Positions 22,667 through 37,710 of a stretch of 64,000 bases of DNA are shown here, piece by piece (position 1 is the first letter of the stretch; every line of letters begins with the position of its first letter). The stretch covers positions 144,253 to 208,252 of the forward strand of contig NZ_JAAIXZ010000010.1 of the NCBI RefSeq assembly GCF_010894435.1, given 5' to 3'. The notes under the pieces were generated by a model that ran no database searches, was not told the DNA's origin, and saw nothing but the letters and a program-made list of their open reading frames with translations. Position numbers and translations under genes: made by a program. This stretch comes from Pyxidicoccus trucidator (GTDB taxonomy: Bacteria; Myxococcota; Myxococcia; Myxococcales; Myxococcaceae).

Positions 22667-24937
22667 ATGGCCCCGTCCTCGGGCATCTGTGTGGCCTGCG
22701 GCGCTCGAATTCCGGTGGGGACTCTCGCGTGTCCCTTCACCCCACCCGGGCCCCCACGGGGCGCACCGGTGCGCAGGTGGGCGACCGGCACCTGTCAGCC
22801 CCCACTTGTCGGACGCGCCGTGCAGCGGGGGCGGCTGCGGTCCTTGGCTGCGGAGGCGCGGCGCGGGCTTGGGCGCGCGGCGTGGCTGGTGGGCGAGGCG
22901 GGCCTGGGCAAGTCGCGGCTGAAGGACGCGCTCGTCGAGGAGCTGGTCGGCGAGGGCTTCGAGGTGTGGGAGGGCAGTGGCGTGGCCCTCCCCGGCACCC
23001 CGGGTGGCCCGTTCCGCGAGCTGCTGGAGGGGACGCGCGCGTTGCAGCCAGCGCCCGGGGTGGGGCGGGTATCCAGCGAGGAGGAGGCGCTGCTCGCGCG
23101 GTTCGTGGAAGGCCGTGAGCGGCAGGGCGTTCCCGCGAGCCTCTCCGCCGAGCGCACCGCGCTGTTGGATGCCCTCTGCCATGCGCTCCTGCCACACCGC
23201 CGTCCACGCCTGCTCATCCTGGAGGACTGGCAGTACGCGGACCCGCTCAGCCATGCGCTCGTCGAGGTGCTGGTCTCTCGCCTCTCGCACACGTCCATGT
23301 TGTTGCTCGCCCTGCAGCGCCCCGGGGGGACGGCGCCGGTGCCGCTGGCGTCCGAGGTGCTCACGTTGGGGCCGCTCTCCGACGACGACTCCAGGTCCCT
23401 GCTGGAGCAGCGCGTGCGTTCGCGGACCGCCATGACACCCCAGGTGCGTGAAGCCCTGTTGCACGCGGGCACCGGACATCCGCTGCACCTGCTGCACGCC
23501 ATCACCCTCCACGAGGAGCACCCCGAAGCGCCGGTGCCGGACTCGGGCGAGGCGGCGCTCTCCGCACGGTTGGAGGGGCTGTCCCCCGAGCAGCGCGAGG
23601 CGCTCCAGGCGGCCTTCGTGCTCGGGCCTTCGTTTCCGCGCCCCGTGCTGGGGGCGCTCGTCGGCGGCTACACGTCGCTCGCGCCGCTGGAGATGGGAGG
23701 GTGGCTTCGGGCCGTCGCGGGGGGGCGGTGCACGTGGGCGCTCGAGCCCGCGGAGGTGTCCCCGGACAGCACCGCCGAGGACACGCAGGCGCTGCATCAC
23801 CGGGCCGCGGAGGCCTATGAGTCCCTGCCCGTGGAGCTGCGGCGCCGGGCCTGCTCGGAGCTCTCCCGGCACTGGCTCGCGGCGGACGTGCCGGAGCGGG
23901 CGCTGCCGCACCTGCTGGAGCTCGCGGGGTGGAACCGCGCGGCGCTGGAGACAGGCTCCGCGCTCGCGGTGTACCGCTTCTCACTGGGCCTGGCGGCGGG
24001 GCTGGAGTCCACCGCGGCGCGGGAATGGCAGCGCGTGCTCTGGGAACGCAAGGGGGATGCGCACCGGCTCGCTGGCGCCCGTGAGGACGCGGAGTCCGCC
24101 TGGCGCACGGCCCGCGCGCTCGACGTGGAGGCGCCGGAGCCCCTGCTGGTGGACCGGGCGCGGAGACTGCAGAAGCTGACCTCGGTGCTGCTCGCGCTCG
24201 GCCGCTTCGACGAGGTGGTTGCGTTGGCGGAGGAGGGCTCGCGCGAGGGGGTGGAGGCCGTGCCCCTGGTGGCCGCGTCGCTGGATGGGCTCGCCTCGCT
24301 CGCGCTCTGTGGGCTGGGGCGCTTCGAGCAGGCCGCTGCGCGGCTGCGCCTCGCGCGGGAGCGGCTGCGGCTGGCCTCTCTGGAGAATGGGCCCTCGCGG
24401 GCCAGCGTGGAGGCCTCCCTGCACCGGGCCATGGGCAATGTGTTGATGGGCCAGGGGCATCCGGAGCAGGCGACCGTGGAGTACCTCGCGGTGCTGCGCT
24501 GGAGCGAGCTCGCCGGGGACACGTGGGAGCACTCCATCGCGCTCTTCAGTCTGGGCAATGCCCACGCGCGCGCGGGAGACCGGGAGCGCGCGACGCACTT
24601 CTTCCAGCTCGCGCTGGACCTCAAGTCGCGCACCGGGGACCGCTGGGGCATGGCGTACACCCACCATGGGCTGGCGCTGCTGCACACGCAGGCGGACGCG
24701 CCGGAGCTGGCGAAGGAGGACGCCGTGCGCGGACTCCAGCTCGCCGCGATGCTGGGGGACCGCAAGCTGAAGTCGCTGCTCCGCTGCGCCCTGGGCCGCG
24801 CGCAGCTTCGGCTGGGGGAGTTGGAGGAGGCCGGGCGACAGCTCCAGCTCGCCGCCCAGGATGCCGCCGCCGTGGGCGCCCGCTCGGAGCAGCTCCAGGC
24901 GGAGGCGGCACTGCGCGCTCTCGACGCACGACGTTGA
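22667..24937 (+). CDS. AAA ATPase with C-terminal TPR repeats
   Basis: 756 residues from the ATG at 22667, set by GGGAGG 5 bases upstream. A small Cys motif near the start (CVACGARIPVGTLAC) may bind zinc. The ATPase follows: Walker A VGEAGLGKSRL near residue 85 and Walker B LLILEDWQYAD. This is the STAND/Orc-like AAA found downstream of serine/threonine kinase domains in myxobacterial multidomain regulators, followed by about 10 TPR-like helical pairs (for example LFSLGNAHARAGDRERATH). Here the kinase domain is missing, so it is a free ATPase-TPR scaffold, probably a signalling switch. Partner and trigger unknown. Confidence 0.82.
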   Translation: MAPSSGICVACGARIPVGTLACPFTPPGPPRGAPVRRWATGTCQPPLVGRAVQRGRLRSLAAEARRGLGRAAWLVGEAGLGKSRLKDALVEELVGEGFEVWEGSGVALPGTPGGPFRELLEGTRALQPAPGVGRVSSEEEALLARFVEGRERQGVPASLSAERTALLDALCHALLPHRRPRLLILEDWQYADPLSHALVEVLVSRLSHTSMLLLALQRPGGTAPVPLASEVLTLGPLSDDDSRSLLEQRVRSRTAMTPQVREALLHAGTGHPLHLLHAITLHEEHPEAPVPDSGEAALSARLEGLSPEQREALQAAFVLGPSFPRPVLGALVGGYTSLAPLEMGGWLRAVAGGRCTWALEPAEVSPDSTAEDTQALHHRAAEAYESLPVELRRRACSELSRHWLAADVPERALPHLLELAGWNRAALETGSALAVYRFSLGLAAGLESTAAREWQRVLWERKGDAHRLAGAREDAESAWRTARALDVEAPEPLLVDRARRLQKLTSVLLALGRFDEVVALAEEGSREGVEAVPLVAASLDGLASLALCGLGRFEQAAARLRLARERLRLASLENGPSRASVEASLHRAMGNVLMGQGHPEQATVEYLAVLRWSELAGDTWEHSIALFSLGNAHARAGDRERATHFFQLALDLKSRTGDRWGMAYTHHGLALLHTQADAPELAKEDAVRGLQLAAMLGDRKLKSLLRCALGRAQLRLGELEEAGRQLQLAAQDAAAVGARSEQLQAEAALRALDARR

Positions 24938-24972
24938 CGGAACCCCGGGCGGGGCCCGAGTGTCCACCTTTC

Positions 24973-25950
24973 GTGCCTGCCCTGGCCCTCTCCCGGCTCC
25001 GTCTCGTCGTGCTGCTGACCTGCTCGCTGGGGCTCCCGTCCGTTGCTCCGGCGGCGCCCGCTCCTGATGCGTTCGAGGCGTACCTGCGTCCCCCGCATCC
25101 ACCCGCCGAGGGCTTTGCTCCCATGCCCGACGGCCAGACGGCTCGCGCGGGGAGCGAGGTCCGCGCGCTGGCTCGTGGCCGGGTGGCGGAGGTGGGGGCC
25201 GACGGGCGCTCCGTGGTGCTGGAGCACCTCTACTACGAGAACCATGCGCTGCTGCGTGCCCGGTCGGAGTACTCGGGGTTGGACGGAGTGGCGCTGCGCC
25301 CGGGGACGCTCGTCACGCGTGGGCAGGTGCTGGGGCGGGTGGGGGAGAAGGCCCGGCCCGCCGTGACGCTGCATTCAGGGCGGCGCCTGTCCGCCGCCGA
25401 GGCCCGGCGCTTCACCGCCCTGCGGGAGCGGCTGCTGCTGCCCGCGGAGGAGCCGTCGCTGCTGCTCATCTCGCACGACGACTTCCAGCTCCGGCTGTAC
25501 GCACGGGGGCGCGAGCTGGCGCGCAAGGAGGTGAGCTTCGGTCAGGCGGCCGGTGCCAAGGAGGTGCGCGGCGACAACCGCACGCCGAAGGGCATGTACT
25601 TCGTCACCCAGAAGCTGCGGGGCGACATCCCCGGGCCGTACTCGGCCTTCTATGGCGGGCACTGGATTCGGGTGAACTATCCGAATCCCTGGGACGCGGA
25701 ACGGGGCGTGGCCTCGGGCTTTGTCGATGCGAAGACGCGCGAGAAGATTGCCCTCGAATGGGCCGCGCGGCGGAACACGGTGGCCTCCACGCGGCTGGGC
25801 AGCGGCATCGGCCTGCACGGTTGGGCGGGGGACTGGACGCTGGCGGAGAGCGGCGGGCGGCTGTCCTGGGGCTGCGTGGTGATGCACAATCCGGACATCG
25901 CGTCGCTGTATGAACGGATTCCGGAGGGGACCATGGTCGTCCTCTTCTAG
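24973..25950 (+). CDS. L,D-transpeptidase with M23-like N-terminal domain
   Basis: About 325 residues from a GTG at 24973; a signal peptide follows (LRLVVLLTCSLGLPSVAPAAP), so export is likely. Residues about 45-130 (GSEVRALARGRVAEVG, VLEHLYYENHALLRA, TLVTRGQVLGRVGE) look like a lysostaphin/M23 fold but without the zinc-binding HxH, so the fold may only bind peptidoglycan. The C-terminal YkuD domain has GIGLHGWAG and SGGRLSWGCVVMHN with the catalytic His and Cys. It should cross-link peptidoglycan or attach proteins to it in the periplasm. No clear ribosome site, so the start is uncertain. Confidence 0.8.
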   Translation: MPALALSRLRLVVLLTCSLGLPSVAPAAPAPDAFEAYLRPPHPPAEGFAPMPDGQTARAGSEVRALARGRVAEVGADGRSVVLEHLYYENHALLRARSEYSGLDGVALRPGTLVTRGQVLGRVGEKARPAVTLHSGRRLSAAEARRFTALRERLLLPAEEPSLLLISHDDFQLRLYARGRELARKEVSFGQAAGAKEVRGDNRTPKGMYFVTQKLRGDIPGPYSAFYGGHWIRVNYPNPWDAERGVASGFVDAKTREKIALEWAARRNTVASTRLGSGIGLHGWAGDWTLAESGGRLSWGCVVMHNPDIASLYERIPEGTMVVLF

Positions 25951-26001: not shown

Positions 26002-27147
26002 GTGATCGAGATAGAAACCATCGAGGCCTTCGAGCTGCACCTGCGCTCGGGGGCGCACCTGGCCAACGTCGTCATCCAGGGACTGGACCTGCGGAGGTAC
26101 ACCCGGGAGCTGGCCTCCGCCGAGCTTGCCGGCACCGTCTTCCTCGGCTGTGAGCTGGAGAAGGATGCGCTGAGCGCGGCGCTCGCACACGGGGCCATGG
26201 TGTTCCCGCCATTCTCCGGGCTGCCGTACCTGCCCTATCGCGGCGCGGTCTACTCGCCCGAGGAGCTCTATGCGGGTTTCGACCCGGCGCGGCCGGAGAC
26301 GTATGCCGAGACGCCGGATGCCCGCATCTACGCGCACTGGGCCACCCATGGCCGGGGCAGCCCGCCGACGCTGCTGGAGACGCTGTCGCAGCGGCTCCAT
26401 GACCATGCCGTCACCGATGCGATGGAGGACCTGCTCCTCGCGAACGGTGGGGCTCGCAAGGTGGTGGCCATCATGGGCGGCCACTCCATGAAGCGGGGCC
26501 AGCCGGACTACCGCGCCGTGGCGGCGCTGGCTCGCGAGCTGACGCAGCGCGGCTTCTTCATGGTCAGCGGCGGCGGCCCTGGCGCCATGGAGGCCACCCA
26601 CGTCGGCGCCTGGTTCGCCCGGCGCACCGAGGCGGAGCTGGACGCCGCGCTCGCCATGCTCGCGAAGGCTCCCAGCTACACGGACCGCGAGTGGCTGGCC
26701 CGCGCCTTCGAGGTGCGCGGCGCATTCCCCCTGCGTGACGGTGACAGGCCCTACTGCGACAGCCTGGGCATCCCCACGTGGCACTACGGGCACGAGCCGC
26801 CCAATCCCTTCGCCACGTACATCGCCAAGTACTTCGCCAACAGCGTGCGCGAGGACGGTCTGCTCACGATTGCGCGCGGCGGCATCGTCTACGCGCCGGG
26901 CAGCGCGGGCACCATCCAGGAGATCTTCCAGGACGCCTGTCAGAATCACTACAACTCCGTGGGCGTCATCAGCCCGATGATCTTCCTGGGCACCGAGTTC
27001 TGGACGCGCACGCGCCCCGTGTACCCGCTGCTGGCGCTGCTCGCCCAGGGGCAGGAGTACGCGCGCTACCTCATGCTGACGGACTCCCAGGAGGACGTCG
27101 TCCGGGCGCTGGTGGAGTACGACGGGGCGCGGCAAGGGGGCGGGTGA
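26002..27147 (+). CDS. LOG-family (SLOG) nucleotide-processing protein
   Basis: 381 residues from a GTG at 26002. The Rossmann-like core contains VVAIMGGHSMKRG, SGGGPGAMEATHVGAWF and, instead of the usual PGGxGTxxE, the variant YAPGSAGTIQEIFQDA. These are the substrate-binding motifs of LOG phosphoribohydrolases and the wider SLOG class. About 140 extra N-terminal residues (rich in ARPETYAETPDARIY-like sequence) are not part of LOG and I do not recognise them. It could release a base from a nucleoside monophosphate or sense nucleotide signals. It follows the transpeptidase on the same strand by 51 bases. Confidence 0.72.
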   Translation: MIEIETIEAFELHLRSGAHLANVVIQGLDLRRYTRELASAELAGTVFLGCELEKDALSAALAHGAMVFPPFSGLPYLPYRGAVYSPEELYAGFDPARPETYAETPDARIYAHWATHGRGSPPTLLETLSQRLHDHAVTDAMEDLLLANGGARKVVAIMGGHSMKRGQPDYRAVAALARELTQRGFFMVSGGGPGAMEATHVGAWFARRTEAELDAALAMLAKAPSYTDREWLARAFEVRGAFPLRDGDRPYCDSLGIPTWHYGHEPPNPFATYIAKYFANSVREDGLLTIARGGIVYAPGSAGTIQEIFQDACQNHYNSVGVISPMIFLGTEFWTRTRPVYPLLALLAQGQEYARYLMLTDSQEDVVRALVEYDGARQGGG

Positions 27148-27268
27148 CACCTTCCGGCCCGGCCGGTGTTCAGGGACGTGCACGCGCGCCGGGCGTGCCG
27201 ATATGCGCCGCCGCCAGGACCGTTCCACGAGGGGCGGCCCTGGCCGTACCGGCCGAAGGAGGAGTGCC

Positions 27269-27457
27269 ATGTCCCACACCAATCCATTCTTGCTGGGGGC
27301 GGTGTGCGTCGTGCTGGGAGCGCTCCTGTGGATGGTGCCGGCCTGCTGGGGCGGTGCGCGGCCCCAGTCTCCGCGGGGGCCCGCGGCCTCCAAGCCCACC
27401 CGGACCTACGCGAGCGTCGGGTGGCGCCCCGTGCAGGTCCTGCTCGGCGCGAGGTAG
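27269..27457 (+). CDS. Small single-pass membrane protein
   Basis: 62 residues. An excellent ribosome site (AAGGAGGAG) precedes the ATG, and residues about 7-25 (FLLGAVCVVLGALLWMV) form one membrane helix followed by a Pro/Arg-rich tail. I do not recognise a family. It lies between the LOG protein and the HAD gene on the same strand, and its own ribosome site argues for real translation. Confidence 0.55.
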   Translation: MSHTNPFLLGAVCVVLGALLWMVPACWGGARPQSPRGPAASKPTRTYASVGWRPVQVLLGAR

Positions 27458-27532
27458 TCCCGAGGCCGCCGTAGGCCTGTTCCACCGACGCAAGGCCGCG
27501 TATTCTCTGGGCCCCTCGGGAGGAGTCCCCGG

Positions 27533-28216
27533 ATGCGGCCCCGGGCCGTCTTCTTCGACCTGGATGACACGCTGATCGACCGTGCCGGCGCCTTCGCCAG
27601 CTACGTCGAGGACCTCATCGACCGCCACCCGGCCGCGTTCCCCGCGTCCCGCCGGGCCGAGGACGTGGCCGAATTTCACGCGCTCGACGGGCGAGGTTCC
27701 ACCGACCGCACCGTCTTCTGCCGCCGCGTGACGGACACCTTTCCGGCCCTGGCGCTGTCGCCCGAGGAGCTCTGGGACGACATGTCCACACTGCTGCCCA
27801 CCCTGGTCGTTCCCAGCGTGGGAACGCTGGTGCTCGTGGAGGGCCTGCGGAAGCGCGCCCCCGTGGCGGTGGTGTCCAATGGCTCGGGCCGCGTGCAGCG
27901 CGCGAAGCTGGAGCGTGCCTTCCTCACGGCGCACCTTCCGGACGTCTTCCTCTCCGGCGAGGTCGGCGCGGAGAAGCCGGACGCCCGCATCTTCCTCGCG
28001 GCGCTCGCGCGGGTGGACCGTGCTCCCGAGGAGGTGCTCCACGTCGGGGACGACCCGGAGCGGGACATCGTCGGCGCCGCCCGCCTGGGCATGTCCACGT
28101 GCTGGGTCTCCCACGGGCGCCCGTGGCCACAGGGGCTGCCACCGCCCACGTTCACCGTGGAGCGTGTCGTGGGCCAACCCGAGGCGCTTCGCGGGGTGCT
28201 GGCGCGATGGACATGA
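27533..28216 (+). CDS. HAD-superfamily hydrolase
   Basis: 227 residues, ATG with GGGAGGAG upstream. Motif I VFFDLDDTLID has both catalytic Asp, motif II VVSNGSGRV the Ser/Asn, motif III the Lys in AEKPDARIF, and motif IV HVGDDPERDI the acidic pair. An alpha-helical type 1 cap lies between motifs I and II. It is a phosphatase-type enzyme of subfamily IA; the substrate is unknown. Its end overlaps the start of the STM4013-family gene by 10 bases, so it belongs to that operon and may process the same phosphorylated compound. Confidence 0.88.
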   Translation: MRPRAVFFDLDDTLIDRAGAFASYVEDLIDRHPAAFPASRRAEDVAEFHALDGRGSTDRTVFCRRVTDTFPALALSPEELWDDMSTLLPTLVVPSVGTLVLVEGLRKRAPVAVVSNGSGRVQRAKLERAFLTAHLPDVFLSGEVGAEKPDARIFLAALARVDRAPEEVLHVGDDPERDIVGAARLGMSTCWVSHGRPWPQGLPPPTFTVERVVGQPEALRGVLARWT

Positions 28217-29016
28217 ACGCCGTGGTCGGCTCGCACGACCTGCTGTTCCTCACCCTGGATACCCTCCGCTATGACGTGGCCGAGGAGCTGGCCGCCCAGG
28301 GGCGCACGCCCCACCTCACGGCGCTGATGCCCGGGGGCCGCTGGGAGCAGCGCCACTCGCCCGCCAGCTTCACCTACGCCGCGCACCACGCCTTCTTCGC
28401 CGGCTTCCTGCCCACCCCCGTCACGCCCGGCCTCCACCCGCGCCTGTTCGCCATGCGCTTCGAGGGCAGTGAGACAACGGCCCCGGGCACCTGTGTCATC
28501 GACGCGCCGGACCTCGTCACCGGGCTCGCCGGGCGCGGCTACCACACCGTCTGCATCGGCGGCGTCGGCTTCTTCAACAAGCGCAACCCGCTGGGCAGCG
28601 TGCTCCCCGGCCTCTTCGCGGAGAGTCACTGGAGCCGCGAGATGGGCGTGACGGACCCGCGCTCCACGGAGCACCAGGTGGCGCTCGCCGTGAGCCGTCT
28701 GGACGCGCTGCCTCGGGAGCAGCGCGTCTTCCTCTTCATCAACGTGTCCGCGCTGCACCAGCCCAACCGGCACTACCTGCCCGGCGCCACCCAGGACTCG
28801 CGCGCCTCGCATGCCGCGGCGCTGGAGTACGTGGACCGCCAGCTTCCGCCCCTCTTCGCCGCCCTGCGGCGACGGGGGCCCGCCTTCTGCATCGTCTGCT
28901 CGGACCATGGGACGGCCTATGGCGAGGACGGCTATACCGGCCACCGCCTGGGCCACCCCGTCGTGTGGACGGTGCCCTACGCTGAGTTCCCGCTGAATCG
29001 AGACACCGCACCATGA
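28207..29016 (+). CDS. STM4013/SEN3800-family hydrolase
   Basis: 269 residues of the alkaline-phosphatase/sulfatase superfamily. The metal-binding ends are visible as FLTLDTLRYDVAEE near the start, CSDHGTAYGEDG and GHRLGHPVVW near the end. A catalytic Thr in LDTLRYD is likely. It is soluble, with no signal peptide. The name comes from the Salmonella gene STM4013, whose neighbours STM4011, 4012, 4014 and 4015 all have matches here. The family has no assigned reaction. It overlaps the HAD gene upstream and STM4012 downstream (ATGA). Confidence 0.82.
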   Translation: MDMNAVVGSHDLLFLTLDTLRYDVAEELAAQGRTPHLTALMPGGRWEQRHSPASFTYAAHHAFFAGFLPTPVTPGLHPRLFAMRFEGSETTAPGTCVIDAPDLVTGLAGRGYHTVCIGGVGFFNKRNPLGSVLPGLFAESHWSREMGVTDPRSTEHQVALAVSRLDALPREQRVFLFINVSALHQPNRHYLPGATQDSRASHAAALEYVDRQLPPLFAALRRRGPAFCIVCSDHGTAYGEDGYTGHRLGHPVVWTVPYAEFPLNRDTAP

Positions 29017-30329
29017 CGCGCCTGGAGCAGATGCTGGAAGAGACGCCCTACGTGGCGTACCTCTACGGCTACCCGCACAAGACGGCCTACCGGCCCTTCA
29101 CCCCCGCGCTCCCCCTGGAGTCCGTCTGGGCGGAGGAGCGGCGCGACGCGCTGTTCCTCTACCTCCACGTGCCCTTCTGCGAGATGCGCTGCGGCTTCTG
29201 CAACCTCTTCACCGCCGCCGGGCCGAAGCAGGACGTGGTGGACGGGTACCTCGGCGGGCTCGTCCGGGAGACGCGCCGGGTGAAGCAGGCCCTGGGCCCC
29301 GCCACCTTCGCTCGCGCCGCGATTGGCGGCGGCACGCCCACGCTGCTCGACGTGGCCGGCCTCAACACCGTGTTCGACCTCATGGAAGGCGTCATGGGCG
29401 CGGACATGAAGCAGATTCCCGTCTCCGTGGAGGTGTCGCCGGAGACGGTGGACGCGGAGAAGCTCCGCGTGCTGCGCTCGCGCGGCGCGGACCGGGTGAG
29501 CATTGGCGTGCAGAGCTTCATCGAGGCGGAGGTGGCCGCGGTGAAGCGGCCCCAGCAGACCGCGCAGGTGGAGGCCGCGCTGGACCTCATCCGCTCCACC
29601 GGCTTCCCCACGCTGAACATCGACCTCATCTACGGGATGGAGGGGCAGACGGTGGAGAGCTTCCTCTTCTCCCTGCGCGCCGCCCTCCGCTTCAACCCCG
29701 AGGAGCTGTACCTCTATCCGCTCTACGTGCGTCCCCTGACGTTCCTCGGCAAGAAGGCTCGCGCGTGGGACGACCTGCGGCTGTCGCTCTACCGCGCCGG
29801 CCGCGACTTCCTCCTGTCCCAGGGCTACACGCAGGTCTCCATGCGCATGTTCCGCGCGAAGCACGCGCCGGACGCGGGCGGCCCCGTGTACCGCTGCCAG
29901 GAGGACGGCATGGTGGGCCTGGGCTGCGGAGCGCGCTCGTACACAGGCGGCGTGCACTACTCGTCCGAGTACGCGGTGGGCTCGCGCGAGGTGCGCTCCA
30001 TCATCGCCTCCTACAGCGAGCGCACCGAGGCGTCCTTCGGCGAGGTGGGCTACGGCTTCCGGCTGGAAGCGGCGGAGCGGAAGCGGCGGTACATGCTCCT
30101 GTCACTGCTGGCGGATGGCGTGGACCTGGCCACGTACCGTGAGCGCTTCCACTCCGACGCGCTGGCGGACTTCCCCGAATTGGCGGAGCTGGAGGCGCAC
30201 GGGCTGGGACGCCGCGTGGAGGGCGCATTCCGGCTCACCGAGGCGGGCGTGGAGCGCTCGGACCTGATTGGCCCCTGGCTGCACTCGGAAGGGGTGCGCG
30301 AGATGATGCGGGAGTACGCCTGGCGATGA
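29013..30329 (+). CDS. STM4012-family radical SAM protein
   Basis: 438 residues of the HemN/HemW-like radical SAM class. The cluster motif is CEMRCGFC in LYLHVPFCEMRCGFCNLF, followed by GGGTPTLLD (SAM binding) and RVSIGVQSFIEAEV. The C-terminal HemN domain (GFRLEAAERKRRYML) is present. The family groups next to oxygen-independent coproporphyrinogen oxidases but occurs in this distinct gene set, so heme synthesis is not implied. Both ends overlap the neighbouring genes by 4 bases, so it is translated with them. Confidence 0.88.
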   Translation: MTRLEQMLEETPYVAYLYGYPHKTAYRPFTPALPLESVWAEERRDALFLYLHVPFCEMRCGFCNLFTAAGPKQDVVDGYLGGLVRETRRVKQALGPATFARAAIGGGTPTLLDVAGLNTVFDLMEGVMGADMKQIPVSVEVSPETVDAEKLRVLRSRGADRVSIGVQSFIEAEVAAVKRPQQTAQVEAALDLIRSTGFPTLNIDLIYGMEGQTVESFLFSLRAALRFNPEELYLYPLYVRPLTFLGKKARAWDDLRLSLYRAGRDFLLSQGYTQVSMRMFRAKHAPDAGGPVYRCQEDGMVGLGCGARSYTGGVHYSSEYAVGSREVRSIIASYSERTEASFGEVGYGFRLEAAERKRRYMLLSLLADGVDLATYRERFHSDALADFPELAELEAHGLGRRVEGAFRLTEAGVERSDLIGPWLHSEGVREMMREYAWR

Positions 30330-31210
30330 AGCTCACCGTGCTCTACCGGGGCCCGCTGTCCGGCTGCAACTTCGGCTGCGAGTACTGCCCCTTCGGCAAG
30401 TGGAAGCAGAGCGAGGAGGAGCTCGCCAAGGACCGCGCGGACCTGGCGCGGTTCATGGCGTGGGTGGAGTCGCGCAAGGACCTGCGCCTCTCCGTGTTCT
30501 TCACGCCGTGGGGCGAGGCCCTCATCTGGCCCTGGTACCAGGAGGCGCTCGCCCGGCTGACGCACCTGGAGCACGTTGAGCGCGCCGCCGTGCAGACGAA
30601 CCTGTCCTGCACGCTGGACTGGGTGCGGAGCTGCCGCGTGGAGAAGCTGGGCATCTGGGCCACCTTCCATCCCGAGTGGATGAAGCGCCGCCGCTTCGTG
30701 GCCCAGTGCGAGACGCTGTCCTCGCTCGGCGTGCGGCACAGCGCCGGCATGGTGGGCTTCACGCGCTTCGCCGAGGAGGCCGAGGCCCTGCGCGCCGAGC
30801 TGCCCCCGGACACGTACCTGTGGATCAACGCGGTGAAGGACGGGCAGGAGGAGCCGTACACGTCCGAGGACCTCCAGCGCTTCACCCGCGTGGACCCGCT
30901 CTTCCCCGTGAACAACACGCGTCACCCCAGCCTGGGCCGGGCGTGCCGGGGCGGAGAGTCCGTCATCTCCGTGGACGGGGAGGGCACCGCGCGCCGGTGC
31001 CACTTCATCGACGAGCCGATTGGGAACATCTACACGCCGGACTTCGACTCGGCGCTGCGGCCCCGTGCGTGCTCGAAGGCGACGTGCGGGTGCCACATCG
31101 GCTACGTGCACCTGGAGTACCTGGAGCTGGACTGCGTGTTCGGCTCCGGCATCCTGGAGCGCGTGCCCGCGACGCCGCTGTGGAGGTCCGTGCCCGGCTC
31201 ACGGCCCTGA
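30326..31210 (+). CDS. STM4011-family radical SAM protein
   Basis: 294 residues. Cluster motif CNFGCEYC in LSGCNFGCEYCPFGKWK. A second Cys set near the C-terminus (CSKATCGCHIGYVHLE, and CRGGESVISVDGEGTARRC before it) suggests an auxiliary iron-sulfur site like those of SPASM enzymes. It is the last gene of the plus-strand operon. Its final 12 bases overlap the 3' end of the convergent STM4014 gene. It is paired with STM4012, so two different radical SAM reactions are expected on one pathway; the substrate is not known. Confidence 0.85.
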   Translation: MKLTVLYRGPLSGCNFGCEYCPFGKWKQSEEELAKDRADLARFMAWVESRKDLRLSVFFTPWGEALIWPWYQEALARLTHLEHVERAAVQTNLSCTLDWVRSCRVEKLGIWATFHPEWMKRRRFVAQCETLSSLGVRHSAGMVGFTRFAEEAEALRAELPPDTYLWINAVKDGQEEPYTSEDLQRFTRVDPLFPVNNTRHPSLGRACRGGESVISVDGEGTARRCHFIDEPIGNIYTPDFDSALRPRACSKATCGCHIGYVHLEYLELDCVFGSGILERVPATPLWRSVPGSRP

Positions 31211-32353
31211 GGCAGGCGTGCCGAGAGAGCTCAGGGCCTCTCGAATCTCCCACTCGTACACGGTGAGGCCGTCGCGGCGCAGGTTGGGCAGCAGGTCTCC
31301 GAAGGCGTTCGCCTCCAGCACGCGGTGCCCGGTGAAGTGCTCCTCGTACATGAGGTCGATGCCCACGTGCAGGCAGTCGTGTGCGCGCGCCACGGTGCGG
31401 CAGCTCTCCAGGGCATCCGCCAGCTCGTTCGGAGGCACCGCCGCGCGCAATTCGTCCACGTCCCCGCGCCAGCCGCCGAGGTGCAGGTTGGTAATCGGGT
31501 GCCGGCTCTGACGCACCACCGTGAAGGCCGGCTCGCCGCGCACCATCAACACCCGGCAGTCGAAGTAGTCGCCGCCCAGCCGGGCCTTGGGAATCGAGTG
31601 CTCCACCTGGGAGCCCTCGGCCAGGAGGAAGGTGAGCACCTCATCCACCCGCGCGGGCTCGTCGATGCGGCGGACCTTCAGCGAGTTGTACCAGCCCGTC
31701 GCCGCCTGCTCGATGGTGGTGACCAGCGTGTCCCGGGAGCGCCCCAGCCGGAAGATGGCCAGGCATGACGCCGACGAGCCACAGGACAGCTTCACGAATA
31801 CCTCGCGGCAGTCCTGCTCGCGCATCCGCTCGCGCAGCGACTCCGGGTCCGTGACGCCTTCCAGCGGCTCGGGCACGGGCACGCCCAGCGCCGCGTACTT
31901 TCGCGAGGTGACGCGCTTGTCGAAGAGATCCGCGATGCTCGCGGGCGACTGGAGCACCTTCCAGCGCGGGTGCGCCGCGAAGCTGGCTTGCAGCTCCGCC
32001 AGTACCTCGAGGAAGCCCAGGTGGTACTGGCGGGGGCAGAGGATGAGCCCGTGGTCGTACTCCAGCGCGTCCACCTGGGCCGGAGTGACACTGGCGCAGC
32101 CGGCCTCCTGTGCGTCCGGGTAACCTCGCTTGAGCAGGGCCCGCTCCACGTCCCAGCTCTCGCCCGCAGAGTCGATGCGGACCAGCGTCTCCGTGTCCGG
32201 CAGGTCGGCGAGGAGCCCGGGGTTGGCGAGCAGCTCCACCCAGGGCACCACGCGCGCGGCGGGGAGCCCCTGGCGGACCAGCGCCTCCTGGAAGAGGGCA
32301 ACGCGGCGGTTCTCCGCGTTGCCGATGAGGAGGAAGGGAGGCGCGGCCGTCAT
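31199..32353 (-). CDS. STM4014-family ATP-grasp-like protein
   Basis: 384 residues. The C-terminal two thirds have ATP-grasp features: FDKRVTSRKYAALGVPVPEP, VFVKLSCGSSASC, and the metal-binding end VLEANAFGDLLPNL. The N-terminal about 100 residues (LIGNAENRRVALFQEALVRQG) look like a pre-ATP-grasp Rossmann domain. ATP-grasp enzymes join a carboxylate to an amine, so this is the best candidate for a peptide-bond-forming step in the STM4011-4015 set. It is the last gene of the long minus-strand run, 6 bases after the WGR-LRR gene, and overlaps the convergent STM4011 gene by 12 bases at the 3' ends. Confidence 0.82.
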   Translation of the reverse strand: MTAAPPFLLIGNAENRRVALFQEALVRQGLPAARVVPWVELLANPGLLADLPDTETLVRIDSAGESWDVERALLKRGYPDAQEAGCASVTPAQVDALEYDHGLILCPRQYHLGFLEVLAELQASFAAHPRWKVLQSPASIADLFDKRVTSRKYAALGVPVPEPLEGVTDPESLRERMREQDCREVFVKLSCGSSASCLAIFRLGRSRDTLVTTIEQAATGWYNSLKVRRIDEPARVDEVLTFLLAEGSQVEHSIPKARLGGDYFDCRVLMVRGEPAFTVVRQSRHPITNLHLGGWRGDVDELRAAVPPNELADALESCRTVARAHDCLHVGIDLMYEEHFTGHRVLEANAFGDLLPNLRRDGLTVYEWEIREALSSLGTPASGP

Positions 32354-32359
32354 CCGGTG

Positions 32360-33712
32360 CTACTCGCCGACCGCGACGTAGCGGCGGTCGTCGCCCTCGT
32401 CGGAGTCGTCGTGGCGCTGGCGGCCGATGACCACGCCCGCGCACAGCTTCGCCAGCGACTTCGCGACCTTGGCGCTGAGCAGGTTCCGGTCGAGGTCCAG
32501 GTGCTTGAGGTGCTTGAAGGCCGCGGCGTTCGCCAGCATCACCTCCGCGCCCTTGTCCGTGAGCGTGCCCAGGGACAGGTCCAGCGACTCAATCTGCTTG
32601 AGCACCTGCGACTTCGGCAGCGCCGCGACCAGCTCGTTGGTGAACTCGGCGTTGCACAGGCCCAGCTGCCTGAGCTGGGGCAGGCCGGTGGCGTCGAGGA
32701 TGGGCTGGATGGACTTCAGGTCGCCGCCGGCCCCGTACTCCTCGGAGCCGAACCAGACCTCCATCCGCTCCAGCTTCGGCCAGTTCGCGGCGGCGATGGC
32801 CTTCACCGCCGGGCGGGACAAGCCGCCGGACTCCACGATGAACTCTCGCAGCTCCGGCAGGTCGATCTTCCCCATGCTCGCACCGCCGCCACGCAGGTGG
32901 AGCGAGCGGAGCTGGGGAAAAGCCGTGTAGAGCGGAGCGAGGTTCCCCAAGTCCGTCCAGGAGATTTCCATCTCATCCGGGAACACGAAGTCGCCGATGA
33001 ACAGCTTCCGCAGCGCCTTGGGGGCCGCCTTCGTGATGAGCTTGATGAGCGCGCCGTACTCGTTCTCTCCCTCGTTGTCCGCCATGCCCAGGGTCAGCTC
33101 CTGGAGGAAGCGCGCGGAGGGGTGGGCGAGCAGCATCGCCAGCGTCTCGTCGATCTGGAACTCCGGGTCCTCACCGTAGCCGGCGATCGCCACGCGGGCG
33201 CTTCGGATGAAGCCCAGGTGCCACTCCACCGTCAGCGTCTTGCCCCCGAGCATCGACGCGAGGGGCGCACCCAGCAGCACGTCCTGGTGCTTCTTGAGGA
33301 GGGCGGCCACCTTCCGCTTGAGCGCGGTGGCCTCCGCGCCCTTCGCCTGGAGCAGCGCGTGCTGGAGGGCAATCAGCTCGCCACGAGGGTCTCCCTGCGA
33401 CTGGAGCCAGTCACCGTAGACGAGGTAACCGTCCGCCACCTCGGGTGCTCCGAGGATGGCCGCCTCCAGCTCCTTGTTGGCCTTCGGCTTGGGGCTGGCG
33501 TCCGTCGGCTTGACGCGCTTGTAGCCCTTGCCCTCCTTCTCCTGGACCTGCTTGTCGTACGCGGTGCGCGACTCCCACGAGCTCTTGAACTTCTGCGTCT
33601 TTTCCTGGCCCTCCGTGCCGATGCGGCCCCAGCGGGTGGTGAGGACGTCTTCGTCCCGGGTGATTTCCCAGAACTTGTTCGAGCTGCCTTCCTTCATTTC
33701 GAAGCGCGGCAT
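32360..33712 (-). CDS. WGR/TIGR02996/LRR protein (STM4015-like), copy A
   Basis: 450 residues. Residues about 1-60 form a WGR domain (KFWEITRDEDVLTTRWGRIG). Residues about 85-115 match the TIGR02996 repeat-companion domain (YLVYGDWLQSQGDPRGELIAL). The rest is leucine-rich repeats, for example QVLKQIESLDLSLG and FKHLKHLDLDRNLL, ending in YVAVGE. Such proteins are non-enzymatic binders; WGR domains sometimes bind nucleic acid. It is a paralogue of the next gene upstream (33746-35113) with the same domain order and tail. Six bases separate it from the STM4014 gene. Confidence 0.83.
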   Translation of the reverse strand: MPRFEMKEGSSNKFWEITRDEDVLTTRWGRIGTEGQEKTQKFKSSWESRTAYDKQVQEKEGKGYKRVKPTDASPKPKANKELEAAILGAPEVADGYLVYGDWLQSQGDPRGELIALQHALLQAKGAEATALKRKVAALLKKHQDVLLGAPLASMLGGKTLTVEWHLGFIRSARVAIAGYGEDPEFQIDETLAMLLAHPSARFLQELTLGMADNEGENEYGALIKLITKAAPKALRKLFIGDFVFPDEMEISWTDLGNLAPLYTAFPQLRSLHLRGGGASMGKIDLPELREFIVESGGLSRPAVKAIAAANWPKLERMEVWFGSEEYGAGGDLKSIQPILDATGLPQLRQLGLCNAEFTNELVAALPKSQVLKQIESLDLSLGTLTDKGAEVMLANAAAFKHLKHLDLDRNLLSAKVAKSLAKLCAGVVIGRQRHDDSDEGDDRRYVAVGE

Positions 33713-33745
33713 GGTGTGTCCCCCTGAAAAGTGGTGCGGGTGGTG

Positions 33746-35113
33746 CTACTCGCCGACCGCCGCGTAGCGGTAGTCCTCTTCGAACTCGCGCTGGCTGCCC
33801 GCGGCCACGCTGGGGCTCAGCTTCGCCACCAGCTTCTCGCCCTCGTCCGTGAGCGTGTTCTCCGTGAGGTCCAGGTGCTTGAGGTGCGCGAAGGCCGCGG
33901 CGTTCTCCGCGAGGATGCGCGCGCCCGCGTCCGACATCGTGCCCTTGGACAGGTCCAGCTGCTCCAGCTGCTTGAGCACCTTCGACTGGGGCAGCACCTT
34001 GCAGAGCTCGTCCGTGAATTCCGAGTTGCACAGGCCCAGCGACTTGAGCTTCGGCAGGCCCTTGCCGTCGAGGATGGGCTGGATGTCCTCCACCCCGCCC
34101 TCGGCGCCATAGTTGTCGGCGCCGAACCAGACCTCCAGCTTCTCCAGCTTCGGCCACTTCGCGGCGGCGACGGACTTCACCGCCGAGAGGGCCAGGCCGC
34201 CGGTCTCGATGGTGAACTCGCGCAGCTCCGGCAGGTCGACGTTGCCCAGCTCCAGGGAGTGGCCGCGCAGGCGCAGGGAGCGGAGGTTGGGGAGCAGCTT
34301 GTAGAGGGCGGAGATGTCGTGGAGGTGGGACCACGAGATTTCCGTGTCGTCCGGATACTCGAAGTCGCCGATGAACAGGCTCTGGAGCGTCTTCGAGCCG
34401 CCCAGGTCGGTGAGTGCCTCGGTGAGGGAGCTGATGGTGCCTTCGTAGTCATTCTCATCATCGAAGTGCGCCATGCCGATGGTGAGTCCCTGGAGGAACC
34501 GCGCCGAGGGGTGCGCGAGCAGCTCCTTCAACAGCTCGCCGATGTCCCGGTCGGAGTCGTAGTCCTTCTGGCCCACGCGCGCGGTGCGGATGAAGCCCAG
34601 GTGCCACTCCACCGTCAGCTCCTCTTCGTCCAGCGCGTCCGCCAGGTCGCCGAGCAGCGCGGCCTTGCGGCTCTCGAGGAGGGAGGAGACCTGCTTCTTG
34701 AGCTTCGTGGCCTCCTCGCCGCTCGCCTGCATCGCCGCGTGCTGGAGGGCGATGAGCTCGCCGCGCGGGTCGCCCTGGCGCTGCAGCCAGTCGCCGTAGA
34801 CGAGGTATGCGTCCGCGTTGTCCGGGTTGGCGATGATGGTGGCCTCGAGCTCCGGGTTGGACGCGCTCTCGCCGCCCTCGTCACCGTCGGACTCGCCTTC
34901 GTCGCCCTCGCCGGCCAGCTCGTAGCCCTTCTTCTCCTTCTCACGGACGAGCTTCTCGTACTCCTTCTTCGCCGCGGCGGGAGAGTCGAAGGTCTGCGTC
35001 TTCTCCTGGCCGTCCGTGCCGATGCGACCCCAGCGCGTGGTGAAGGTGTTGTCGGCGAGGGTGATCTGCCAGAACTTGCTGGAGCTGCCTTCCTTGAACT
35101 CGTACCGCGGCAT
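33746..35113 (-). CDS. WGR/TIGR02996/LRR protein (STM4015-like), copy B
   Basis: 455 residues from the ATG at 35113, chosen because GGAGGA precedes it and the sequence MPRYEFKEGSSSKFW aligns with the start of copy A. Domain order is WGR, an acidic Glu/Asp/Gly linker (about 75-100), TIGR02996 (YLVYGDWLQRQGDPRGE) and leucine-rich repeats (KLEKLEVWFG, FAHLKHLDLTENTL), ending YAAVGE. It differs from copy A mainly in the linker and several repeats, so the binding surfaces have diverged. It begins 43 bases after the vWA-like gene of the FtsH-type operon, with no hairpin in the gap, so both blocks may share one mRNA. Confidence 0.83.
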   Translation of the reverse strand: MPRYEFKEGSSSKFWQITLADNTFTTRWGRIGTDGQEKTQTFDSPAAAKKEYEKLVREKEKKGYELAGEGDEGESDGDEGGESASNPELEATIIANPDNADAYLVYGDWLQRQGDPRGELIALQHAAMQASGEEATKLKKQVSSLLESRKAALLGDLADALDEEELTVEWHLGFIRTARVGQKDYDSDRDIGELLKELLAHPSARFLQGLTIGMAHFDDENDYEGTISSLTEALTDLGGSKTLQSLFIGDFEYPDDTEISWSHLHDISALYKLLPNLRSLRLRGHSLELGNVDLPELREFTIETGGLALSAVKSVAAAKWPKLEKLEVWFGADNYGAEGGVEDIQPILDGKGLPKLKSLGLCNSEFTDELCKVLPQSKVLKQLEQLDLSKGTMSDAGARILAENAAAFAHLKHLDLTENTLTDEGEKLVAKLSPSVAAGSQREFEEDYRYAAVGE

Positions 35114-35156: not shown

Positions 35157-36653
35157 CTAGAGAAGCGCCCGCGCAAGCTCAAGCGCCGTGCCAGTCCAGG
35201 CCTCCCATGGGGACTCAGGGGGCTCGGCGGGCCCGGCCGTGGGCCCGGAACGCCCAGGCATTCCGGCCTTGCTTCCCAGGACGCGCACGCGGGGGGAGGG
35301 CCCGCTCAGGTCCAGCAGGTGCAGGCCCAGCCGGGCATCGGCGTCCAGCGCGTCGTGGGGGCCCTGACTGGCCGCGTCCACGAGGAGCACGTCCACCCGG
35401 GCACGCTTCGTGCTCGCGGTGGCCTCGGAGAGGACGGTGTCCAGGTCGGTGGCGGTGAGGACCTCCGCCGTGCCCCGCTCGCGCCACTCGCGCAGCAGCA
35501 ATTCGCACAGGCCGCGCTCCGGCTCCAGGGGGAGCTGTCCCTTGCCGTCCTGGAGGAAGACCACCCGGAAGCGGAGGTCCTCGGCGGTCAGCCACGCGGA
35601 CAGCCGGCGCACGAGGCACAGCACCAGCCCGAGCGCCACCACCACGCGCTGCCAGCGCACGCCCGCGTCCTTCACCCGCGCGTCCGCGAGCTCCGGCAGC
35701 AGGGCGAACGTCACCACTCGCCGCCGCCGCACCGCGACGCTCTCGTCGCGCGTGTAGTAGAGGAGCTCGCCCTCCACGTAGCGCACGTCGAAGAGGTCCA
35801 GGCTCGGCTCGTCCTCCATGTAGACGAGCTCGGAGGTGACGAGGTTCTCCAGGCTGCCCACGTTGGAGACGGACGCGAAGCCTCCCTGCGGGAAGGAGGC
35901 CTCGTCCTCCAGGGTGGTGGGTGTTGGGCCGGAGGAGACCGGACGCGCGCGAAGCTTCGGGGGCAGGGTGCGGGAGAGGGCCTCCGCTGCCTCCACCGCC
36001 TGCTCCAGCGCCATGCGCTGCGCCTTGCCCTGGAGGTGCTCCAGGTTCTCCAGTGTGAAGGCCTCCGTGTCACCGAGGAGTGCCTGGGCTCGACGGGCGG
36101 CGCTGGCCAGGGCCTCGTAGCCTTCGGCCAGCCGCTCCAGCGCGGCGCCGGCTCCGGGCTCGCGAAGGGCCGCGTAGCCGGCGTGCAGCAGCTCCTCGGG
36201 AGGACGGTCCAGCACCCGTCGCGCCAGGGCCGGGCTCAGCGCGGTGCCGGCGTCGTAGCCGAGGCGCGTCAGCACACGGGCGACGAGGAAGGCGACGCCC
36301 CGGGGGCGGAGTGGCTCGGGCAGGCGGGCCAGGGCGGACGACACGGCGTCCAGGTGCGGCTCCGCAGCCAGCCGCGCGAGCACGTGGTCGTCGTAGGCGC
36401 GCACGGCGGCGCGCAGCCGGGGCAGCGTGTCCGGGACGGGCAGGGTGGGGGAGAGCGGGACGCCGGAGACGAGCCGGCCGAGGTCGGAGACCAGGGCCGG
36501 CGGGGGCAAATCGGGTGACTCCGCGAGCGTGGCCAGGAGCCAGGGCACCGCGTGCGTCAGGGCCTCGGGCGTGGGGCCCTCCTGCCGGGCAAGGCACAGC
36601 CCGGCGCACAGCCAGCGCTCCGCGTCCTGGGGTCCTCGCAGCTCCGCGCTCAT
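35157..36653 (-). CDS. vWA-like protein of a FtsH-MoxR ternary system
   Basis: 498 residues. The C-terminal half (from SVSNVGSLENLVTSELVYMED to VLLVDAASQG) resembles the von Willebrand A partners of MoxR ATPases, with the recognisable LDLFDVRYVEGELLYY and VVVALGLVLCLVRRL. The usual metal-binding DxSxS is replaced by a stretch reading FALLPELAD, so the MIDAS is probably not functional. The N-terminal half is helical and Ala/Leu-rich. It is the last gene of the translationally coupled block and lies 7 bases after the MoxR stop. In such systems the ATPase remodels or loads the vWA protein. I infer a scaffold or effector-holding role. Confidence 0.75.
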   Translation of the reverse strand: MSAELRGPQDAERWLCAGLCLARQEGPTPEALTHAVPWLLATLAESPDLPPPALVSDLGRLVSGVPLSPTLPVPDTLPRLRAAVRAYDDHVLARLAAEPHLDAVSSALARLPEPLRPRGVAFLVARVLTRLGYDAGTALSPALARRVLDRPPEELLHAGYAALREPGAGAALERLAEGYEALASAARRAQALLGDTEAFTLENLEHLQGKAQRMALEQAVEAAEALSRTLPPKLRARPVSSGPTPTTLEDEASFPQGGFASVSNVGSLENLVTSELVYMEDEPSLDLFDVRYVEGELLYYTRDESVAVRRRRVVTFALLPELADARVKDAGVRWQRVVVALGLVLCLVRRLSAWLTAEDLRFRVVFLQDGKGQLPLEPERGLCELLLREWRERGTAEVLTATDLDTVLSEATASTKRARVDVLLVDAASQGPHDALDADARLGLHLLDLSGPSPRVRVLGSKAGMPGRSGPTAGPAEPPESPWEAWTGTALELARALL

Positions 36654-36660
36654 GCCTTGC

Positions 36661-37710
36661 TCAGGTGAGGCCCAGCAGCCGGGGCACCTTCTCCTCCAGC
36701 AGGTCTATCTCCTCGCGGCTCTCGCCCAGGTAGGAGAGGAGCTGGAGGTCCTGCCGCTCCACCGCGCCGCCGTGGAAGATCCACGCGCGCGTGCGCAGCA
36801 GCCGGTACAGCTTCACCAGCTTGCGGTCGCTGATGAAGACGCCGTCCTCGCGCGTCAGCGTCTGCACCACCCGGCGGAACTCGCGCAGCAGCTCGTCCCG
36901 GAAGAAGAGGTCCCTGTCGCGCAGCTCCTTCCCGTCCGGGCCCGTCTCGCGCCGCCCCATCATCAGCGTCAGGTAGCGGTGCGCCTTGAGCACGTCGTCC
37001 AGCGAGGCATGCCCCTCCGCCCACGGCTTCTGGTTCATCTCGCGGTAGGTCTGCGAGTCCAGGCCGGAGTCGAGCAGCTCCAGGAAGTAGCGGTCCTGCA
37101 CCGGGCGGCACGCGGCCTTCAGGCAGAAGCGGTCCTTCAGCGCGCCCAGCTCCGCGTGCTCGGGCAGCTCGTTGGTGGCAGCGAAGAGGACCTTGAGTTT
37201 CACCGGCTGCGGCGCGCCGTCCTGGTAGAACTTGCGCTCGTTGATGACCGTCAGCAGCGCGTTGAGGATGGCCGAGCTGGCCTTGAACACCTCGTCCAGG
37301 AACACGAGCTTCGCGGTGGGCAGCTTGCCGCCCTCGCGGCGGATGTAGCGGCCCTGGCGCAGCAGGTTGATGTCGATGGGGCCCAGCACCTCCGACGGCT
37401 CCGTGAAGCGCGTCAGGAGATATTCGAAGTAGTCCTCGTTGGGGATGCGCAGCGCCTCCCGGAACTTCAGCACCAGGTCCGACTTCGCCGTGCCCGGAGG
37501 CCCCACCAGCAGCAGCGGCTCCTGCGCCACCGCCGCCACCGTCATCAGGTCCACCAGGGTCTGCTTGCCCACGAAGTGCCGGCCGAGCGCCACGCGAAAG
37601 CGGTTGAGCCGCTCGCGCAGGGTGTGGGCCTCGCGGGAGAGCGCGTCGAAGGACAGCTCGCTGATGGGGTCGACGGCGGCCGACTCGTCGCGCCGGGGAA
37701 GACTGCTCAT
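36661..37710 (-). CDS. MoxR-family AAA ATPase
   Basis: 349 residues. Walker A VGPPGTAKS at about 69-77, Walker B KLVFLDEVFKAS near 135, FTEPSEVLGPIDI and the sensor 1 AATNELPEHAE are the MoxR/RavA hallmarks. MoxR ATPases act as chaperones with vWA-domain partners, one of which is encoded just downstream. Its ATG overlaps the stop of the 1092-residue gene by 4 bases. Walker motifs look intact, so it should hydrolyse ATP. The ternary system it belongs to also includes an FtsH-like ATPase, so two different AAA machines work together here. Confidence 0.88.
   Translation of the reverse strand: MSSLPRRDESAAVDPISELSFDALSREAHTLRERLNRFRVALGRHFVGKQTLVDLMTVAAVAQEPLLLVGPPGTAKSDLVLKFREALRIPNEDYFEYLLTRFTEPSEVLGPIDINLLRQGRYIRREGGKLPTAKLVFLDEVFKASSAILNALLTVINERKFYQDGAPQPVKLKVLFAATNELPEHAELGALKDRFCLKAACRPVQDRYFLELLDSGLDSQTYREMNQKPWAEGHASLDDVLKAHRYLTLMMGRRETGPDGKELRDRDLFFRDELLREFRRVVQTLTREDGVFISDRKLVKLYRLLRTRAWIFHGGAVERQDLQLLSYLGESREEIDLLEEKVPRLLGLT

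Follow-up and report, generated by a model that had tools for sequence, protein, structure and literature searches.

A conserved C-terminal tail of STM4015-type leucine-rich repeat proteins as the predicted substrate of the STM4011–STM4014 enzymes

The DNA considered here, hereafter the window, is a stretch of 64,000 nucleotides from Pyxidicoccus trucidator (contig NZ_JAAIXZ010000010.1, positions 144,253 to 208,252), whose 12.67-Mb genome is GC-rich and myxobacterial. It carries genes of the STM4011, STM4012, STM4013 and STM4014 families, encoding two radical S-adenosylmethionine (SAM) enzymes, an alkaline-phosphatase-superfamily protein and an ATP-grasp ligase, next to two genes for STM4015-like proteins with WGR, TIGR02996 and leucine-rich repeat (LRR) domains. 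Tail conservation, gene co-occurrence and structure models suggest that STM4011–STM4014 probably constitute a protein-modification machine, the substrate of which is the C-terminal tail of STM4015-type LRR proteins, unlinked paralogues included. The terminal glutamate (Glu) of this tail is the predicted site of modification.

The tail of STM4015-type proteins

Families were assigned to the window proteins by NCBIfam matches against curated cut-offs, together with a Pfam scan. STM4011, STM4012, STM4013 and STM4014 each exceed their cut-offs. Both WGR-LRR proteins match NF038076 (STM4015) with E-values of 2.9e-71 and 1.1e-67, and their scores of 239.9 and 228.1 bits stay under the curated cut-off of 275, which is reached in none of 195 Myxococcota genomes; they are homologous all the same. 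The first is encoded at 32360–33712 on the minus strand and, as read directly from the DNA, ends in RYVAVGE (32363–32383, minus strand). The second, at 33746–35113 on the same strand, ends in RYAAVGE (33749–33769, minus strand) and had gone unmentioned in the initial annotation, which had correctly recorded a WGR-LRR gene beside the enzymes. The two bodies are 57% identical over the part compared, only one of 14 linker residues is shared, and the tails are nearly the same. Across 50 pairs of same-locus paralogues, the median body identity is 54%, with 5/7 tail and 2/14 linker residues identical.

STM4015 open reading frames (ORFs) were collected from the window and 121 further loci (L007–L127) by means of a hidden Markov model (HMM) derived from 12 diverse members. 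Glu is the last residue in 132 of 135 unique closed ORFs from many phyla (the exceptions being Asp, Gly and Tyr), a set that is enzyme-linked by selection because most of its members were gathered through STM4011 or STM4013. In the same 135 ORFs, Arg occupies position -7 in 127, Tyr or Phe position -6 in 129, Ala or Ser position -4 in 115, Val, Leu or Ile position -3 in 127, and Gly, Ser, Ala or Thr position -2 in 122. The resulting consensus is R-Y/F-x-A/S-V-G/S/A-E-COOH, represented in the window pair by R-Y-x-A-V-G-E-COOH, and the residues ahead of it hold little information and are often acidic. The seven-residue tail is conserved in Myxococcota, Actinomycetota, Cyanobacteria, Deinococcota, Chloroflexota and Planctomycetota. 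In more distant members, the Glu is retained and the tail is looser, for instance MNAMYTE in Salmonella, YYPMITE in Bacteroides and RYPSLTE in Paenibacillus. The first window LRR protein has a solved relative, 2ra8 of B. fragilis (E 6.1e-42), in which YPMITE ends at residue 354, the whole chain having 362 residues; the last eight residues, unseen in the structure, may be a tag.

Over the last seven positions, the information content amounts to 21.1 bits for STM4015 (112 ORFs) and 17.2 bits for STM4012 (105 ORFs), and to 6.1, 6.6 and 6.5 bits for STM4011, STM4013 and STM4014 (104, 89 and 95 ORFs, respectively). In view of the conserved last seven residues and the C-terminal Glu, the role of mere binder that the WGR-LRR protein had first been given is probably wrong.

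The occurrence of the tail was followed with a DNA pattern, the reversed pattern serving as control, in the source genome and in the 195 Myxococcota genomes. The source genome holds three matches, each at an STM4015 relative, and no match to the control. Two of these are the window genes and the third lies on another contig (C5), where the LRR fragment and its RFVSVGE tail stand in different frames (L190:7564-8271 and 7895-8125); this copy is either decayed or affected by a sequencing error. The strict pattern matched 69 of the 195 genomes, and five were dropped as their only matches ended in TGG or started with a Ser codon, leaving 64. The filtered pattern is present in 57 of the 61 genomes with an over-cut-off STM4011 and in 7 of the 134 without one (Fisher p 3e-36, which is overstated because genomes within a phylum are related), the 57 being counted by DNA pattern and not each read in frame. 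The four misses carry close variants, namely HYAAVGE (G117 and G118), RYTSIAE (G152) and RYSVLGE (G146). Among the seven positive genomes lacking an over-cut-off STM4011, G153 has a true LRR tail, and the pattern is preceded in frame by 27 to 81 residues with no STM4015 match in G009, G065, G100 and G101 (G175 and G188 are not included). In Cyanobacteria, STM4015 exceeds the cut-off in 4 of 292 genomes, one of them the search centre; STM4011 exceeds its own cut-off in the same four, and all four have tail-bearing STM4015 copies. The tail thus largely tracks the enzyme genes.

This tracking in Myxococcota, and the coincidence of STM4015 with STM4011 in Cyanobacteria, make it very improbable that the tail serves LRR proteins in general as a signal for degradation or sorting, independently of the enzymes. 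Furthermore, LRR relatives from several genomes without an over-cut-off STM4011 have no tail (G148, C448 of G153, G156, G066 and, with weaker matches, G070 and G186), and in six annotated records, from Salmonella, two Deinococcus, Streptomyces, Methylobacterium and a Paenibacillus plasmid, the five families are arranged as a single operon that reads 4015 (one or two copies)-4014-4013-4012-4011. Such a signal would be favoured by the tails of G015 and G153, two genomes with no over-cut-off STM4011, STM4013 or STM4014.

Tail-bearing LRR genes also occur away from the enzyme genes. Twenty stretches were picked, not at random, from genomes with several pattern or LRR matches, eight of them shortened by contig ends. 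In 19 of the 20, an ORF with a match to the STM4015 HMM terminates in the tail (the match being weak in L206, E 8e-9), the sole exception being the C5 copy of the source genome; STM4011–STM4014 are found in none of the stretches, and the genomes concerned have one over-cut-off STM4011 each. Eight of the dispersed proteins were scanned: all match STM4015, two have WGR and five TIGR02996, the TIGR02996 matches of L203 and L204 being just or well below the cut-off. With the tail-bearing LRR proteins dispersed and one over-cut-off STM4011 seen per genome, the tail looks like an address read by a machine that works in trans, and the enzymes would also act on distant LRR copies.

The enzymes and their predicted chemistry

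STM4014 is encoded at 31199–32353 on the minus strand (NF038074, E 6.7e-114). No Pfam family matches it, and rimK_fam is reached only at E 0.0044. In a profile search, the six best chains were those of LysX (1uc8, 1uc9 and 3vpd) first, then biotin carboxylase and then RimK (E 4e-5 to 5e-4). The structure model is confident, with a mean predicted local distance difference test (pLDDT) score of 93.9. Its best match is ArgX in complex with LysW, Glu and ADP (3vpb; Z 23.7, root-mean-square deviation (rmsd) 2.7, 270 aligned residues), tied within 1 Z unit with RimK (7qys; Z 23.0, rmsd 2.8, 276 aligned residues) and followed by LysX (Z 22.6) and the bifunctional LysX/ArgX with LysW-gamma-AAA (Z 22.0). 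Residues Asp265, Arg267, Arg281, Thr288 and Asn289 are invariant in 35 family members and identical to the aligned LysX residues. The ATP-grasp assignment of the initial annotation, although invisible to Pfam, is upheld by the profile search and the confident model, and the model supports a RimK/LysX-type ligase.

Related ligases suggest what such an enzyme might do. In the amino-group carrier pathway, as described in passages of two papers, the gamma-carboxylate of the C-terminal Glu of a LysW-type protein undergoes activation and is linked to an amine (PMC9303977; loading also PMC10433800), and the LysW tail EDWGE is read by the GSWGR motif of ArgX (PMC10433800). The likeness is that a RimK/LysX-fold ligase stands beside a carrier ending in hydrophobic-Gly/Ser/Ala-Glu-COOH, a pattern that reads EDWGE in LysW (PMC10433800). 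However, the candidate carrier here, an LRR protein, has from about 280 to several hundred residues and is not a small Zn-binding protein, its tail is RYxAVGE, and STM4014 is accompanied by an alkaline-phosphatase-family protein and two radical SAM enzymes. Neither the EDWGE tail nor the Zn-binding Cys domain was found when tested for, and GSWGR is missing from STM4014; therefore, the STM set is not a member of the LysW/LysX system. RimK, which is described as adding Glu to the C-terminus of RpsF (S6), shares the ligase fold and the action, predicted in the present case, at the C-terminus of a folded protein (PMC10092738). The target proteins differ. To our knowledge, RimK has no radical SAM partners. 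In pearlins (TglA/TglB, 3-thiaglutamate), a protein scaffold likewise bears at its C-terminus an added residue on which chemistry is reported to take place (PMC9303977), but the PEARL aminoacyl-tRNA ligase and the small scaffold peptide were not seen among the scanned operon proteins. Altogether, these findings favour protein modification, or else synthesis on a protein scaffold, and the LRR protein would be the substrate.

It could also be argued, in the explanation nearest to the initial annotation, that the enzymes make a free small molecule, for which STM4015 is the receptor or docking platform and the tail a docking address. LRR domains often bind ligands and several LRR paralogues exist per genome; moreover, a free carboxylate almost always occupies one fixed position at the end of the tail, where a docking pocket could recognise it. 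Nevertheless, the closest relatives of STM4014 work at a protein C-terminus and no tail position is as fixed as the one beside the stop, which fits a reaction site rather than a docking address, and we regard the receptor explanation as rather unlikely.

STM4011 (30326–31210, plus strand; NF038073, E 1.8e-117) is a radical SAM enzyme with a Cys-rich C-terminal extension. Its model (pLDDT 89.4) has BlsE (7vob, Z 16.7), SkfB (6efn, Z 15.8) and SuiB (5v1s, Z 14.7) as best folds, and EpeE and PqqE also match among solved structures. Cys 207, 225, 249, 254 and 256 of the extension are invariant in 24 aligned sequences, and the extension would be expected to hold an auxiliary Fe-S cluster. The initial annotation had proposed looking for such a cluster by structure prediction; the maturase-like fold and the five invariant Cys are consistent with it, the cluster itself lying beyond what a model contains. 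The modelled fold and the Cys-rich extension resemble those of SPASM/twitch maturases such as SkfB, SuiB and PqqE, from which the STM set differs in having no small precursor and in an STM4011 that lacks, in the NCBIfam and Pfam scans, any listed leader-binding domain.

The same likeness invites comparison with ribosomally synthesized and post-translationally modified peptides (RiPPs): the radical SAM enzymes would cross-link or oxidise the Tyr and Arg of the tail, STM4014 would close a graspetide-like ring with the Glu, and the tail would be released by cleavage as the product. The matches of STM4011 to SkfB, SuiB, EpeE and PqqE favour this course, as does the presence of the graspetide ligases PsnB and MdnC in the Foldseek matches of STM4014. 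It appears improbable, however, as the tail holds no invariant Ser, Thr or Lys for ring closure, the Tyr at -6 gives way to Ser or Asn in some members, and neither a protease nor an exporter gene is present within the operon in the six annotated records.

STM4012 (29013–30329, plus strand; NF006067, E 2e-182) is a HemN-like radical SAM enzyme with a HemN_C domain (PF04055 and PF06969). Its closest solved relatives are HemN (1olt, 1.2e-28) and the methyltransferase NocN (9p2u, 2.7e-22). When seven proteins were run against PADLOC, weak partial matches alone were returned, namely STM4012 to PDC-M51A (1.9e-8) and the second LRR protein to WGR_XIII (8.4e-7).

STM4013 (28207–29016, plus strand; NF038075, E 6.7e-132) is an alkaline-phosphatase-superfamily hydrolase or transferase whose best solved relatives are nucleotide pyrophosphatase/phosphodiesterases and sulfatases. 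The Asp and His residues checked are conserved in 90 of 90 sequences, except for the last His (89/90), and the nucleophile position is Thr in all 90; from general knowledge of the superfamily, we take the former to be metal-site residues and the Thr to be the nucleophile. The Cys or Ser of formylglycine-type sulfatases was thus found in none of the 90, and because of the invariant Thr, STM4013 is probably a phosphatase, phosphodiesterase or transferase and not a formylglycine sulfatase, as judged from sequence. This bears on the suggestion that STM4011 is a maturase like the anaerobic sulfatase-maturating enzymes (anSMEs) that activates STM4013, the remaining genes being incidental. anSMEcpe is second in the Foldseek list of STM4011 and STM4013 is sulfatase-like. 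Enzymes of the anSME type convert Cys or Ser, and the suggestion leaves STM4014, STM4012 and the tail unexplained. With Thr at the nucleophile position throughout, we rejected activation of this type and consider the suggestion hardly credible. As a side observation, STM4013 homologues occur in three records filed as phage (H19–H21), two of them very short and unannotated, which may be Salmonella host or plasmid DNA.

The haloacid dehalogenase (HAD)-IA hydrolase (27533–28216, plus strand; PF13419/PF00702) overlaps the start of STM4013 and appears to be an optional partner. A homologue is present in 8 of 80 loci, six of them Myxococcus/Pyxidicoccus-like records and two from Planctomycetota. In Salmonella, a HAD protein of a different subfamily lies 3' of STM4011. 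In a Bacteroides finegoldii plasmid record, STM4011 is fused to a HAD protein (L042:7733-9691), and a deletion appears to have removed most of STM4013 and STM4012.

Precursor search and proposed pathway

The initial annotation had placed these enzymes in a small-molecule or peptide-maturation pathway with no visible precursor. The absence of a small precursor gene nearby is borne out: intergenic gaps within 27533–35113 measure only 6 bases (32354–32359) and 33 bases (33713–33745), so each short ORF listed there overlaps a long gene. The 385-base gap 5' of the HAD gene (27148–27532) contains a few short ORFs, which, among the loci collected, match nothing beyond the nearest relatives (L048 and, in the case of one minus-strand frame, L050); this resembles plain DNA similarity because several frames match at once. 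A small precursor gene was accordingly rejected, and the short precursor peptide gene by which a RiPP cluster would be recognised was found neither at 27533–35113 nor in the upstream gap. That the precursor is not visible is probably wrong, as the conserved tail and its tracking of the enzyme genes make the neighbouring LRR protein the candidate precursor. Maturation as such is supported, and the small precursor gives way to an LRR protein as predicted substrate. The initial view was to be given up if the enzymes proved to modify a protein with a known substrate; this point is nearly reached, the substrate being predicted and not proven.

In the proposed pathway, STM4014 would most likely use ATP to activate a carboxylate of the terminal Glu and link it through an amide bond to an amine, such as an amino acid or similar compound, by analogy with LysX/ArgX on LysW and RimK on S6. 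The two radical SAM enzymes would then alter the added group, residues of the tail, or both, and STM4013, with the HAD protein in some lineages, would remove or transfer a phospho group or one like it. As a large folded 'leader', the LRR body would bear the tail and be either the end product or a reusable scaffold. A modified LRR protein as end product is favoured, because no protease gene was found in the six operon records and the paralogues are dispersed.

Several observations weigh against this proposal, in addition to the selection of the ORF set and the relatedness of the genomes mentioned above. The fold of STM4014 alone leaves the substrate unfixed because glutathione synthetase, inositol kinases and D-Ala ligases reach Z 19–21, and its residues 192–196, aligned to the GS of LysX, read GSSAS where GSWGR would be expected of ArgX. 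No protease or release enzyme lies within the operon in the six annotated records. In G015 (93% complete), the tail FYVSVSE occurs with no STM4011, STM4013 or STM4014 match, STM4012 not having been searched. RYVAVGE occurs on C645 of G153 (89% complete) together with an STM4011 match of 53.8 bits and an STM4014 match also under the cut-off, and no STM4013 match was found in that genome, again with STM4012 not searched. These two cases are exceptions left unexplained. Conversely, STM4015 relatives without a tail exist in enzyme-bearing genomes (C12 of G117 and C10 of G118), a tail-less extra paralogue lies between STM4012 and STM4011 in the cyanobacterial genome G724 (L244:1027-2286), and four of the 135 ORFs, one each in L048, L067, L072 and L118, have no real tail.

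More tentatively, many phyla may arm or load folded LRR proteins, scattered paralogues included, through a radical-SAM-made group on the C-terminal Glu; possible as this is, we hold it with some doubt. If true, this would represent a novel class of protein-bound product or cofactor, with an entire repeat protein as leader and a tail of seven residues as the shared address. It would extend the C-terminal protein chemistry of LysW, RimK and pearlins to large LRR proteins, paired with two radical SAM enzymes, and would account for the absence of a visible precursor peptide in these operons. The five families take their names from locus numbers in Salmonella, and a predicted substrate site of seven residues makes their function testable. 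Among open-licence papers, no description of the STM4011–STM4015 set or of its function was found. STM4013.S is an entry in a table of Salmonella sigma-54 binding sites (PMC3844500) and STM4015 one in a table of positive selection (PMC2784778), each gene being only listed in these tables, and the ATP-grasp passages of three further papers make no mention of the families (PMC4431377; PMC8939145; PMC7794033).

Operon layout, distribution and neighbouring genes

On the plus strand, the HAD, STM4013, STM4012 and STM4011 genes form a run with overlapping ends; STM4014 and the two STM4015-like genes lie on the minus strand, convergent with STM4011. The two radical SAM enzymes, hydrolase, HAD phosphatase and ATP-grasp protein first reported together are all present and matched to specific families. 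The range of 28207–32353 given for them holds STM4013, STM4012, STM4011 and STM4014, with the HAD gene, apart from a ten-base overlap, and the WGR-LRR gene falling outside.

A scan of genome contigs with STM4013 confirmed at least 569 relatives, and the best 80 loci of these were used for locus counts, partners being counted by targeted HMMs with several loci cut at contig ends. STM4011 is found in 71, STM4012 in 74, STM4013 in 80, STM4014 in 68 and STM4015 in 66 of the 80, and all five in 62. The Bacteroides plasmid record has 4015 and 4014 together with a short 4013 fragment that continues into the end of 4012, as well as the 4011-HAD fusion. A megablast search for the Salmonella operon in E. 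coli gave no match in 20,395 records. In Pseudomonadota, STM4015 exceeds the cut-off in 1 of 398 genomes, and this sampling is little informative because the sole match is the chosen search centre itself.

Directly beside the LRR genes, 35157–40985 on the minus strand gives matches to ivWA, bpMoxR and fvmX7, i.e., an FtsH ternary conflict system. In such systems, a radical SAM protein was predicted to modify a peptide effector, according to a passage of Kaur et al. 2020 (PMC7159879). Among the matches listed, ivWA lies within 1.7 kb of an STM4015 match in 25 of 42 ivWA-bearing genomes of the family (91 searched), all from two genera. The link is optional, because 16 genomes of another genus (g6) have STM4011 and no ivWA. 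The conflict set is absent from the six annotated operon records, and a neighbour of the operon in D. taeanensis has no more than an ordinary VWA domain.

A DUF6745 protein and a conserved protein of about 100 residues accompany the operon in 36 and 37 of the 80 loci, respectively. Examples of the former are L039:4186-5650, L040:4518-5843 and L046:10818-12139, and its own C-terminus is conserved as Y-x-P-x-x-E/Q-T/A (41 ORFs). Upstream of the HAD gene, 26002–27147 on the plus strand encodes a nucleotide-nucleosidase/LOG-like protein of the SLOG family, below the family cut-offs. It is preceded at 24523–25950 (plus strand) by a single ORF in which an L,D-transpeptidase domain is joined by a stretch resembling peptidase M23, the latter scoring slightly under its cut-off.

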